Shown here: piece after piece, positions 3,040 through 53,006 of the stretch
How positions within the stretch are numbered: position 1 is the first letter of the stretch
Layout of the letters: each line of letters begins with the position of its first letter
DNA from: Rhodanobacter sp. C06
Lineage (GTDB): Bacteria; Pseudomonadota; Gammaproteobacteria; Xanthomonadales; Rhodanobacteraceae
Assembly: GCF_002001105.1 (NCBI RefSeq)
Contig: NZ_MUNP01000046.1
Coordinates: 1 to 64,000, forward strand
Length of the DNA stretch: 64,000 nucleotides
Reading direction: 5' to 3'
Translations under genes and position numbers: made by a program
Notes under the pieces: generated by a model
What the model was told of the DNA's origin: nothing
What the model saw: only the letters and a program-made list of their open reading frames with translations
Databases searched by the model: none

Positions 3040-3782
3040 ACGAACACTGGATCGTCGGCATCAACCCGGTCGACGGCGCCCTCAACAACGACGCCGCGCG
3101 CGTGTGCGAGCTGCTGGTCGAGAACGGCCAGCGCAACCCGCGCGTGCATGAGCTGGCCGAGCGCGCCAAGGCATTGAAGATCCCGGTGCACCATCGCCCG
3201 CGCGAGCAACTCGACAAGCTCGCCGGCGAGGCGCGCCACCAGGGCGTGGCCGCGTTGTACGAAGCCCCCGCGATGGCGACGGAAGGCGACCTGCCGGAGT
3301 TGCTGGAGCAGGCTGGCAGCGCGGCGCTGGTGCTGGTGCTGGACGGCGTCACCGACCCGCACAACCTCGGCGCCTGCCTGCGCAGCGCGGCGGCGGCGAA
3401 TGCGACCGCGGTGATCGTGCCCAAGGATCGCGCGGTGGGCCTCACCCCGGTGGTGCGCCGCGCTTCGGCCGGTGGCGCCGACCGCGTGCCGCTGATCGCG
3501 GTGACCAACCTCGCGCGCACGCTGAAAGTGCTCAAGGATGCCGGCGTGTGGGTCACCGGCCTGGCCGGCGACACCGAGCAGTCGATCTACGGCATCGACC
3601 TGAAGGGGCCGGTGGCCGTGGTGATGGGCAGCGAGGGCGAGGGCATGCGCCGGCTCACCCGCGAGACCTGCGATTTCACGGCGAAGATCCCGATGCCGGG
3701 TGCGATGGAAAGCCTCAACGTTTCCGTGGCAACCGGTGTCGTGTTGTTCGAGGCGCTGCGTCAAAGGAGCGGATCGCGATGA
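3036..3782 (+). CDS. rlmB: 23S rRNA (guanosine-2'-O-)-methyltransferase RlmB
   Basis: A 248-residue SpoU-class (SPOUT fold) methyltransferase that 2'-O-methylates G2251 in the P loop of 23S rRNA. An N-terminal substrate-binding domain (residues 1-75) precedes the knotted catalytic domain. The three SpoU motifs are visible: VLDGVTDPHNLGACLRSA with the catalytic Asn/Arg, VVMGSEGEGM, and IPMPGAMESLNVSVATG at the C-terminus. Length and motifs match E. coli RlmB. It overlaps rnr by 4 nt, and its stop overlaps the start of the next membrane protein in the same way, so the three form one unit. Confidence 0.96.
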   Translation: MNEHWIVGINPVDGALNNDAARVCELLVENGQRNPRVHELAERAKALKIPVHHRPREQLDKLAGEARHQGVAALYEAPAMATEGDLPELLEQAGSAALVLVLDGVTDPHNLGACLRSAAAANATAVIVPKDRAVGLTPVVRRASAGGADRVPLIAVTNLARTLKVLKDAGVWVTGLAGDTEQSIYGIDLKGPVAVVMGSEGEGMRRLTRETCDFTAKIPMPGAMESLNVSVATGVVLFEALRQRSGSR

Positions 3783-4058: not shown

Positions 4059-4109
4059 GCGCGGCGGGACGACCCGTCGCGCTTCCGGTCCCGCGGGGAC
4101 GACCCTGCG
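4059..4109 (+). promoter_or_regulatory. Guanidine-II (mini-ykkC) riboswitch
   Basis: Two GC-rich hairpins stand in tandem. The first is a 10-bp stem, 4059-4068 with 4073-4082, holding the tetraloop ACGA. The second is a 7-bp stem, 4092-4098 with 4103-4109, again with loop ACGA. Two helices with identical ACGR loops, 7-13 nt apart and directly before the ribosome binding site (AAGGA at 4117-4121), are the defining features of the guanidine-II class. In that class loop-loop contacts on guanidinium binding free the Shine-Dalgarno sequence. Its position in front of a SugE/Gdx-type exporter is the classical context. The spacer here is 9 nt. Confidence 0.93.
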
Positions 4110-9381: not shown

Positions 9382-10041
9382 TCAGCCGACGTCCTGGCCC
9401 ACCCGCTCGCGCTCGAACATTTCCAGCTGGCGCCAGCGGTTGACGATGTCGCAGAACAGCATGGCGGTGGATTCGGCATCGTAGATCGCAGAGTGCGCCT
9501 CGCGGGTGTCGAACGCGCGACCGGAGGCCTGCACCGCCTTGCCCAGCACGGTCTGGCCGTAGGCGAGGCCGCCCAGGGTGGCGGTATCGAAGCAGCTGAA
9601 GGGGTGGAACGGGTTGCGCTTGTTGCCGGTACGGCGCACAGCGGCATTGATGAAACCGAGATCGAACGCGGCGTTGTGGCCCACCAGGATCGCACGCTGG
9701 CAGCCGTGGTCGCGCACGGCGGTGCGCACCGCCTGGAACACGTGCTCCAGCGCGAGGCGCTCGTCCAGGGCGCCGCGCAGCGGGTTGTCCGGGTCGATGC
9801 CGGTGATCTCCAGCGCGCGCGGGTCGAGGTTGGCGCCGGGGAAGGGCCCCACGTGGGCATGCGCGGTGGCCTGCGGGTACAGGAAGCCGTGCGCGTCCAT
9901 GCCCACGGTGATCGCGGCGATCTCCAGCAAGGCATCGCGTTCGGCGTCGAAACCGCCGGTTTCCACGTCCACGATCACCGGCAGGAAGCCGCGGAAGCGC
10001 GTGGCCATGCGGCCCGCCATGCTGTTGTTCGAAACGTCCAT
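9382..10041 (-). CDS. rnt: Ribonuclease T
   Basis: A 219-residue DEDDh 3'-5' exoribonuclease that trims the 3' ends of tRNA, 5S and 23S rRNA. The four acidic residues and the catalytic His lie in [10 protein letters not shown] (DxE, about 22-31), [10 protein letters not shown] and HSAIYDAE. The basic and aromatic patches '[17 protein letters not shown]' needed for RNA binding are present, and length and motifs match E. coli RNase T. It lies directly upstream of pstS on the same strand, but the Pho box in between suggests separate transcription. Confidence 0.95.
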
Positions 10042-51300: not shown

Positions 51301-52170
51301 ATGAACTGGTTGCAGAAAATCATGACCCCGCGCACGCACACGCAGGGTGCTTCCGCCGGCAAGGGCAAGGTGCCCGAGGGCGTGTGGGAGAAGTGCGCGG
51401 GCTGTGGTTCGGTGCTGTACAAGCCGGAGCTGGAGCGCAACCTGATGGTCTGCGCGAAGTGCGGCCACCATCACGCCATCCGCGCCCGCACCCGGTTGCT
51501 CGCGTTGCTCGACGAGGGTTCCACGCAGGAACTGTGGCCCAGCATGGAGGCCACCGACCCGCTGAAGTTCCGCGACTCCAAGAAGTACCGTGACCGCATC
51601 GTGGCCTCGCAGAAGTCCAGCGGCGAGAAGGATTCGCTGGTCGCGATGAGCGGCAAGCTGAAAGGCCGCCCGCTGGTCGCCACCGCGTTCGAGTTCGGTT
51701 TCGTCGGCGGTTCGATGGGCTCGGTGGGCGGCGAGAAGTTCGCCCGCGCCGGCGAGCGCGCGCTGGCCGAGAAGAGCGCACTGGTGTGCTTCGCCGCCAG
51801 CGGCGGCATGCGCATGCAGGAAGGCCTGTACTCGCTGATGCAGATGGCCAAGACCTCGGCGGTGCTGGCGAGGCTGCGCGATGCCGGCGTGCCCTACATC
51901 AGCGTGCTGACCAACCCGTCCACCGGCGGCGTTTCCGCCAGCATGGGCATGCTGGGCGACATCAACATCGGCGAGCCCAAGGCACTGATCGGCTTTGCCG
52001 GCCCGCGCGTGATCGAGCAGACCGTGCGCGAGACCTTGCCCGAAGGCTTCCAGCGCTCCGAGTTCCTGGTCGAGCACGGTGCCATCGACATGATCGTCGA
52101 CCGCCGCGAGATGCGCGACAAGCTGGCCGACCTGCTCAACCTGATGCAGAAGGCGCCGCGCGCGGCATGA
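51301..52170 (+). CDS. accD: Acetyl-CoA carboxylase carboxyltransferase subunit beta
   Basis: A 289-residue subunit of the carboxyltransferase that forms malonyl-CoA. The N-terminal zinc ribbon has two Cys pairs, [12 protein letters not shown] and [10 protein letters not shown]. The crotonase-fold part carries '[23 protein letters not shown]' and '[19 protein letters not shown]', the oxyanion-hole region. Unlike in Pseudomonas, folC does not follow; a terminator-like stem and the DnaA-box-like cassette come next, then genes on the other strand. Confidence 0.97.
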
Positions 52171-52191
52171 GGTTTGCCGGATGCTGGTTGC

Positions 52192-52217
52192 ACGATGCCG
52201 CCGCGAGGCGGCATCGT
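52192..52217 (+). terminator. Terminator-like hairpin after accD
   Basis: An 11-bp perfect stem ACGATGCCGCC/GGCGGCATCGT with a GCGA tetraloop, 22 nt after the stop codon, followed by CGTTT. The GNRA-type loop and stem strength fit a transcript end even though the T-run is short. Confidence 0.7.
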
Positions 52218-52233
52218 CGTTTCCGCATCCGTG

Positions 52234-52394
52234 TTTTCCACAGCCGGTGTGGATGCCTGCCGGACAAAGCTGTGGACAAGCCGCATTCACCGCTTTGGCG
52301 ACAGGCACTTGGCACGCATTGGTGAATTTCTGCGCAGTGCGTTGCGCGTTTTCCACAGCGATTGTGGAAGCGCCTGGGCACAGCCTGTGGACAG
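52234..52394. repeat. Duplicated cassette of DnaA-box-like 9-mers with exact 115-bp period
   Basis: Six 9-mers related to the DnaA box TTWTNCACA occur in 161 bp of non-coding DNA. Unit 1 has TTTTCCACA (52234, full match), TGTGGATGC (52248) and TGTGGACAA (52271). Unit 2 has TTTTCCACA (52349), TGTGGAAGC (52363) and TGTGGACAG (52386). All three positions repeat after exactly 115 bp. The first about 47 bp of the units are similar, and the rest has diverged. In each unit the first two sites face each other around a 5-nt spacer. The whole gap accD-PAP2 (52171-52448, 278 nt) holds only this and the accD hairpin. DnaA binding is inferred from sequence alone. Confidence 0.7.
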
Positions 52395-52448
52395 GTGTCG
52401 CAAGTGCCTGATCGCGCAACACCACGCGACGCGTTGCGCAGGAGTTGC

Positions 52449-53006
52449 TCAGGCGAACGCGGACACGGCGTGCACCAGCCACAGCGACAGCGCGCCCAGC
52501 GCGCCACCGATGCCGACCGCGGCCAGCACATCGCTGGGATAGTGCAGACCGAGGATCACCCGCGACGCGGCGACCAGCGCGGTGAACGCCAGCAGCGGCG
52601 GCGCGAGCAGCGGATACCAGGCCAGTGCCACCACGGTGAAGCCCACCGCCTGCAAGGTGTGGCCGGAGGGAAAGCTGAACTCGTCCAGCGGGGGCACGTG
52701 CGCGATCACGCCGGGGCAGGTGTGGAACGGGCGCGGCCGACGCGTGTGCTGTTTCAGCAGGCGGTAGAGCAGCAGGGCGGCCAGCCCGGTGGCGGCCATG
52801 TGCGCAGCGGCGAGCAGCCCGCGCCAGCCATCCAGCGCGACCAGCGCCAGCATCAGCGCATACCAGAACAGGCCGTTGCCGAGCCGGCTGATCGCACCGA
52901 AGAACACGCCCACCGCGCGCCGCTCGCCCCAGCGGTTCGCCGCCACGCACACGCGGCGATCGAAGGCGAGGCTTCTAAGCATGGATGCCGACGGTAGCGT
53001 GCCCAT
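52449..53006 (-). CDS. PAP2-family membrane phosphatase
   Basis: A 185-residue protein with about five predicted helices and the full acid phosphatase signature: KQHTRRPRPF (K-x6-RP), SFPSGHT (PSGH) and SRVILGLHYPSDVL (SR-x5-H-x3-D). Such enzymes dephosphorylate undecaprenyl pyrophosphate, phosphatidylglycerol phosphate or related lipids. The ATG at 53006 has an excellent GAGGAG 8 nt upstream. It overlaps the end of the glycosyltransferase gene by 32 nt and is therefore coupled to it. A role in lipid or glycolipid synthesis with that enzyme is likely. Confidence 0.9.
   Translation of the reverse strand: MGTLPSASMLRSLAFDRRVCVAANRWGERRAVGVFFGAISRLGNGLFWYALMLALVALDGWRGLLAAAHMAATGLAALLLYRLLKQHTRRPRPFHTCPGVIAHVPPLDEFSFPSGHTLQAVGFTVVALAWYPLLAPPLLAFTALVAASRVILGLHYPSDVLAAVGIGGALGALSLWLVHAVSAFA

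Follow-up and report, generated by a model that had tools for sequence, protein, structure and literature searches.

The question raised by this locus is what six DnaA-box-like sites are doing in non-coding DNA downstream of accD in Rhodanobacter sp. C06, and whether they form a locus of the kind known in Escherichia coli as DARS or datA. The stretch analyzed here (the window) comprises 64,000 nucleotides, and re-reading it confirmed the six 9-mers, their coordinates and the exact 115-bp period given in a preliminary description. The six sites are two copies of a single unit in the intergenic gap between accD and a PAP2 phosphatase gene (Table 1). Each unit consists of box I on the forward strand, box II on the reverse strand at +14, and box III, also on the reverse strand, at +23 from box II, a pattern that can be written TCCACA-N5-TGTGGA-N17-TGTGGA and that starts its boxes at 52234, 52248 and 52271 and again 115 bp further on. 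Unit 2 has no good box match at +11 from box II, where unit 1 has the putative weak box IIIa. With a GC-rich inverted repeat between the accD stop codon and box I of unit 1, the array may lie beyond the accD terminator; a similar hairpin is visible in most of 13 aligned relatives.

Two of the six sites are full matches to TTWTNCACA, as had been described, and they are the only two in the window. These matches prove nothing alone, because 8 of 100 shuffled sequences also reach at least two (0.50 expected). Single TGTGGA words occur in the window at the level of chance (20 vs. 20.7 expected). The head-to-head pair TCCACA-N5-TGTGGA (≤1 mismatch) occurs twice, both times in the array, against an expectation of 0.11 and none in 100 shuffles. 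A scan of the window against Rfam at gathering thresholds gave no match in the array.

Table 1. Coordinates of the array, its neighbors and related sites (window positions unless another stretch is named).
Feature	Stretch	Position	Strand	Remarks
accD, left neighbor	window	51301..52170	+	transcribed towards array; Pfam Carboxyl_trans and Zn_ribbon_ACC
GC-rich inverted repeat	window	52178..52231	+	after accD stop, possible accD terminator, array begins just past it; repeat search
Unit 1 core, boxes I-II-III	window	52234..52276	+	pattern search, genus alignment
Box I, unit 1	window	52234..52242	+	TTTTCCACA, full TTWTNCACA match; invariant in 13 aligned genomes
Box II, unit 1	window	52248..52256	-	TGTGGATGC, read as GCATCCACA; head-to-head with box I, 5-bp gap
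Possible weak box IIIa, unit 1	window	52259..52267	-	TTGTCCGGC; +11 from II; putative, offset enriched over 222 units
Box III, unit 1	window	52271..52279	-	TGTGGACAA, read as TTGTCCACA; +23 from II
IHF-like stretch, unit 1	window	52285..52312		ATTCACCGCTTTG (2 mismatches) and genus-conserved GACAGGCACTTGG block; weak in source genome
Unit 2 core, boxes I-II-III	window	52349..52391	+	pattern search, genus alignment
Box I, unit 2	window	52349..52357	+	TTTTCCACA, full TTWTNCACA match
Box II, unit 2	window	52363..52371	-	TGTGGAAGC, read as GCTTCCACA
Box III, unit 2	window	52386..52394	-	TGTGGACAG, read as CTGTCCACA
IHF-like site, unit 2	window	52401..52413	-	GATCAGGCACTTG; 2 mismatches
PAP2 phosphatase gene, right neighbor	window	52449..53006	-	convergent; Pfam PAP2
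Third exact unit, source genome	L116 (G000 C27)	3107-3146		upstream end of miaA, adjoining peptidase S46 gene
DARS-spaced core before priA, source genome	L105 (G000 C11)	9550-9730, core 9579		TTATCCACA-N5-TGTGGACAAGTCTGTGGATG; offsets +14, +12
Extra one-mismatch unit near DARS-spaced core	L107	~2823
Extra one-mismatch unit near DARS-spaced core	L108	~14152
Extra one-mismatch unit near DARS-spaced core	L121	~10066

Loss of the sites or their spacing from close relatives had been named as the finding that would refute the proposal, and it was not what the genus showed. Among 15 genomes of the genus, two units are present downstream of accD in 13, one unit in one and none in one, the last being a genome that is 85% complete. 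The +23 offset between boxes II and III is kept in all 13 two-unit genomes, and the period between units is 115 bp in 11 of them and 116 bp in two. When the 13 were aligned, 35 of the 36 core bases were invariant, compared with mean column identities of 0.87 and 0.83 for the within-unit spacers, 0.79–0.87 for the 3′ flanks and 0.82 for the 5′ flank. The genomes were picked for having both units and placement allowed at most one mismatch per unit, a procedure that itself favors invariance. The two copies in the window are identical at just 57 of 115 bases, in agreement with the earlier statements that divergence is greater between the sites than within them and that this suggests selection rather than a recent duplication. 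Across genera, unit 1 is 0.68 identical to unit 1 of another genome (78 pairs), whereas units 1 and 2 of the same genome are 0.53 identical (19 genomes). As unit 1 is thus closer to a foreign unit 1 than to its own unit 2, the duplication looks, from these alignments, to predate the split of these genera.

Further support for the boxes being DnaA boxes came from bases that played no part in the search. We collected 222 distinct units on 18 core bases, leaving the remaining bases unselected, and found the second T of box I kept in 221, its equivalent in box III in 221 and the first T of box I in 209. These are the bases that TTWTNCACA predicts outside the searched core, and boxes I and III therefore fit DnaA boxes. 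Box I carries TT(T/G)T ahead of CCACA and box II has no mirror image of it, conserving the TGTGGA half, which was selected for, and little beyond; this asymmetry argues against a dimeric regulator. Counted from box II, there is also conservation of A at +19 (221 units), G at +14 (187), A at +18 (177) and G at +15 (157), and positions +11 to +19 match a box at a mean of 5.57 of 9 bases vs. 3.19 in local shuffles, with 26% of units reaching 7 of 9, which suggests a weak fourth box there. Positions from about +72 to +80 relative to box II were only mildly enriched in box matches, and no weak box is claimed there. Taken as sequence evidence, we consider it highly probable that the array is a selected DnaA-binding element.

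Sites resembling that of IHF tend to lie beyond box III. Within the 32 bp after box III, 28 of 235 units have an IHF-like site with at most one mismatch (1.5 expected) and 71 have one with at most two (15 expected). Two control windows at the latter threshold gave 16 and 2 matches, each vs. 17 expected. The shuffles preserve nothing beyond base content, and the second of these windows is a poor control because it overlies fixed boxes. The matches in the source genome have two mismatches and examples from Stenotrophomonas, Pseudoxanthomonas and Thermomonas have four or five. The source genome encodes IHF alpha (above the profile cut-off).

To place the array among known systems, we compared it with the E. 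coli loci. The core that we take to be DARS1 was located from its known site in the bioD/uvrB gap and from having the same box pattern as DARS2, and has boxes at 3108(+), 3122(-) and 3134(-) of stretch L063, giving offsets of +14 and +12. The DARS2 core upstream of mutH, placed using primer sequences printed in PMC4585315, has the same offsets (L064; 3136(+), 3150(-) and 3162(-)). A passage of PMC5742627 likewise gives the two loci equal box spacing, with box I opposite to boxes II and III, and regards the box I and II pair as the ADP-releasing part; in a portion of PMC8682772, ADP-DnaA molecules on these two boxes are brought together head to head and release their ADP. The array units also have three boxes with box I opposite to the other two, and their box I/II offset of +14 and orientation are those of DARS1 and DARS2. 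However, box III of the array is at +23 from box II and not at +12, which is 11 bp further out, and a strict definition of DARS fails for this reason. The array is intergenic and has candidate IHF-like sites nearby (two mismatches in the source genome), as DARS2 has IHF sites; it differs from the E. coli loci in being tandemly repeated, in its possible weak box at +11 and in its place in the genome. By sequence, then, the units share the part of DARS to which action on the nucleotide is ascribed and depart from DARS in the spacing of box III. The suggestion of a DARS- or datA-type locus can accordingly be retained in part: DARS-type control is the best fit, because boxes I and II are spaced and oriented as in DARS1 and DARS2 and dnaA is on another contig, and it is box III that departs from the strict form.

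A core with the E. coli spacing is present elsewhere in the source genome, before priA (Table 1), and in 10 of 11 stretches read from the family (absent from L122). Nine of these 10 cores have an IHF site (≤1 mismatch) 87–89 bp past the core, the tenth having a two-mismatch site on the other strand, and six have a Fis-like site (≤2 mismatches) at 53 bp, with only a four-mismatch one in the source genome, all of these being raw matches counted without a shuffle control. Across the class, 289 of the 369 genomes scanned contain the pattern (≤2 mismatches), and one control match is among those tabulated. In GTDB, the class Gammaproteobacteria includes the former betaproteobacteria. Among 30 such loci fetched, a priA homolog was in the flank of 12 and none matched the query proteins of the dnaA region, and 18 of the 28 with enough flank had an IHF site (≤1 mismatch) at 86–89 bp, again without a shuffle control. 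Matches to TCCACA-N5-TGTGGATAAGTCTGTGGATG were considered as candidates for oriC and rejected on the basis of dnaA positions and the priA neighbor. We do not claim the DARS-spaced core as new, because parts of PMC4245941 and PMC5742627 report conservation of DARS2, the former of its core with IHF and Fis sites in species related to E. coli and the latter in E. coli-proximal beta- or gammaproteobacteria.

The priA core and the array share their box I/II geometry and a candidate IHF site past the core. They differ in that the priA core places the strong box III at +12 and the weak one at +23, the array having the reverse, and in that the priA core is single copy, class-wide and has its IHF site ~87 bp on, whereas the array is tandem and nearly confined to one order. 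The weak box at +23 was noticed first and tested afterwards, and scores 5.03 of 9 vs. 3.27 in the 30 DARS-spaced cores and 4.4 vs. 2.9 in the 10 family cores (0 of 500 shuffles in both). Since DARS-spaced cores have a weak box at +23, a single scaffold with boxes I, II, +11/12 and +23 may underlie both forms, the strong and weak places differing by a swap.

The spread of the unit was examined at several levels. In the source genome (4.14 Mb) there are three exact copies, two in the array and one beside miaA, with none for a reversed-pattern control; at ≤3 mismatches there are seven matches vs. two for the control. Two relatives (G002 and G010) have a third exact unit 78–79 kb away from the accD array. 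Within the family, exact units were found in 82 of 147 genomes, which represent 18 of the 26 genera, vs. none for the control; carrier genomes have 1 to 14 of them, and the other 65 genomes and eight genera have none. Allowing ≤2 mismatches, 68 of 119 relatives have a match, a count that also takes in the DARS-spaced priA core, and the control gave four matches in three genomes. Of 369 genomes drawn from the whole class, 19 match at ≤1 mismatch (control 1), five exactly, these being from the same family and another family of the order, and 14 with one-mismatch matches only. Two exact units separated by 68–98 bp were then sought in one genome from each of 84,980 species, a scan that possibly left out records very near the source genome, and 91 stretches were returned. 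Eighty-nine of these bear Lysobacterales names (Rhodanobacter, Dyella, Frateuria, Fulvimonas, Luteibacter, Stenotrophomonas, Pseudoxanthomonas, Xanthomonas and Thermomonas, one bin named for the order alone, and [Pseudomonas] boreopolis, which is Xanthomonas boreopolis according to the taxonomy). The remaining two are from bins named Eremiobacteraeota and Proteobacteria. In the Candidatus Eremiobacteraeota bin (L143), accD-like and PAP2-like genes flank the array as in Rhodanobacter and Dyella, and this stretch is probably a mis-binned contig.

Some smaller observations arose from these scans. Three genomes (G012, G031 and G036) have an extra one-mismatch unit 5–7 kb from their DARS-spaced core (Table 1); no comparable unit is among the matches listed for the source genome at ≤3 mismatches. 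Three genomes (G018, G020 and G048) have a single PF00308 match, the other 23 genomes searched having a second, which we take to be an Hda-like protein; G020 and G048 carry several units and G018 has no exact unit.

The host locus of the array varies between genera. In 80 of the 91 tandem loci, for which flanking genes were clustered, an accD-like gene is to the left in 31 and a PAP2-like gene to the right in 26; judged by protein starts, the array adjoins miaA or peptidase S46 genes in Luteibacter, and Pseudoxanthomonas, Stenotrophomonas and Thermomonas have different genes beside it. At least one unit (≤3 mismatches) was found downstream of accD in 30 of 40 genomes (2.4–4 kb examined per genome) and none in 10; because of these 10 and the varying host locus, the element seems not to be needed at one place. 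Both neighbors lie no more than 350 bp away in 53 of the 80 tandem loci, and in 38 of the 53 they converge on the array, an arrangement that speaks against a promoter site. These tallies rest on GC3-scored gene calls with some wrong starts or false genes, most names were assigned by protein start, and the genomes are related.

The preliminary description had further reasoned that 115 bp is near 11 helical turns, so that both sets of sites would face the same side of the DNA. The 115-bp period is exact here but not general, being a trait of the genus, with other periods also in use among relatives. Combining the 91 tandem loci, which were selected for spacings of 108–138 bp, with the 40 accD stretches and removing duplicates gave 159 distinct pairs of adjacent units within 320 bp, all in the same orientation. 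Their spacings fall at 113–118 bp (59), 124–130 bp (66) and 136–139 bp (8), with none at 119–123 or 131–135 bp and the rest longer, so 133 of 159 are in three groups ~11 bp apart. This clustering is in keeping with a preferred face. However, the best period tried was 11.3 bp (resultant 0.60) rather than 10.5 bp (0.45) and the values from related genomes are not independent, and we therefore dropped the strict same-face reading, for which the spacings are at most suggestive. Among the exact-unit matches there is one neighboring unit on the opposite strand, 279 bp off (G491).

That this is not the usual origin, as previously stated, was borne out by the location of dnaA on a separate contig (C34) of the source genome. 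In all seven relatives that could be placed (one main contig each), the accD array lies at 0.57–0.93 of the distance between dnaA and the point opposite it on the chromosome; the DARS-spaced priA core lies at 0.07–0.48 in eight relatives.

We conclude that the array is probably a lineage-specific tandem DnaA-control element built on the DARS scaffold and acting on the nucleotide state of DnaA; for the last part, action on the nucleotide in the manner of DARS, we would put the chances at about even. In this proposal, DnaA would bind the boxes of each unit, and ADP-DnaA molecules on the head-to-head boxes I and II would meet and drop their ADP, in the way described for DARS of E. coli. A DnaA oligomer would be built with the help of box III, which is in line with box II, and perhaps of the weak box between these two, and IHF would bend the DNA at the IHF-like site beyond. 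As the array would be replicated in the later half of the round, its dose would rise late and supply ATP-DnaA for the next initiation. Against this proposal, box III is off the DARS distance, the IHF-like matches are weak in the source genome and in the examples from three other genera, 65 of 147 family genomes lack the exact unit, and the element is not tied to one place. The need for a further DARS-like element is also not obvious, because the source genome already has a DARS-type core.

Other readings were weighed, titration and datA-like action being the main rivals. If the boxes simply held DnaA and left its nucleotide unaffected, the array would be a titration site, and strong tandem boxes in 1 to 14 exact units per carrier genome would suit that role, chromosomal titration sites likewise having several strong boxes in little DNA; a section title of PMC12371093 attributes a large fraction of E. 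coli titration power to DARS1, DARS2 and datA. However, fixed head-to-head spacing, a fixed +23 offset and an IHF-like site would all be superfluous in a pure sink, and in the array the offsets are kept while the spacers drift. A passage of the same paper describes boxes as enriched near oriC and calls this advantageous for titration, whereas the arrays are in the later part of the replichore. We consider titration by itself unlikely. Hydrolysis of DnaA-ATP assisted by IHF, as at datA, is quite unlikely in our estimate, despite the likeness of an intergenic DnaA-box cluster with an IHF-like site to datA, which consists of DnaA boxes and one IHF site according to a passage of PMC5742627. In the E. 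coli datA stretch L216, scanned by pattern (≤2 mismatches) and not box by box against the published numbering, no pair at offset 14 was found and the closest head-to-head pair is at offset 12, whereas that of the array is at 14. In addition, datA is near oriC in E. coli and the arrays are not.

Since DnaA binding is deduced here from sequence and the box I/II pair makes a good inverted repeat, a different protein, such as a dimeric regulator recognizing TCCACA-N5-TGTGGA, might be the true ligand. It would be an improbable one given that the TT(T/G)T of box I has no mirror in box II, that box III is solitary, that unselected bases follow TTWTNCACA, that the mostly convergent neighbors leave no promoter to regulate, and that the same pair opens the core found class-wide. 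Tandem copies, a locus that varies between genera and the copy beside miaA could also suggest a selfish or neutral dispersed repeat carrying these words by chance, which we regard as very improbable because units 1 and 2 have been distinct since before the genera split and conservation is centered on the bases of the sites.

Returning to DARS-type control, a wider interpretation is possible but doubtful, namely that DnaA reactivation in the Lysobacterales involves a second class of element, present in repeats, which would have arisen from the class-wide DARS core by a swap of strong and weak boxes one helical turn apart. With up to 14 units, and the accD array in the later-copied half, DnaA recharging might then be set by copy number and late dose, where E. 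coli relies on one or two sites. The DARS and datA studies cited here (PMC4245941, PMC5742627 and PMC8682772), in the parts drawn upon, concern E. coli and the conservation of DARS2 in its relatives, and in the titles and abstract openings of the open-licence literature we found no description of DARS- or datA-type sites in this order. The presence of the core pattern in 289 of 369 class genomes, and of a tandem, re-spaced variant almost entirely within a single order, would bear on the age of this control and how it has changed. Ranging from 1 to 14 units, the arrays also form a natural series for measuring how copy number affects the timing of initiation.

Elsewhere in the window, the Rfam scan identified a Guanidine-II (mini-ykkC) riboswitch at 4061-4107 (+), with a score of 44 bits vs. 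a threshold of 32 bits.
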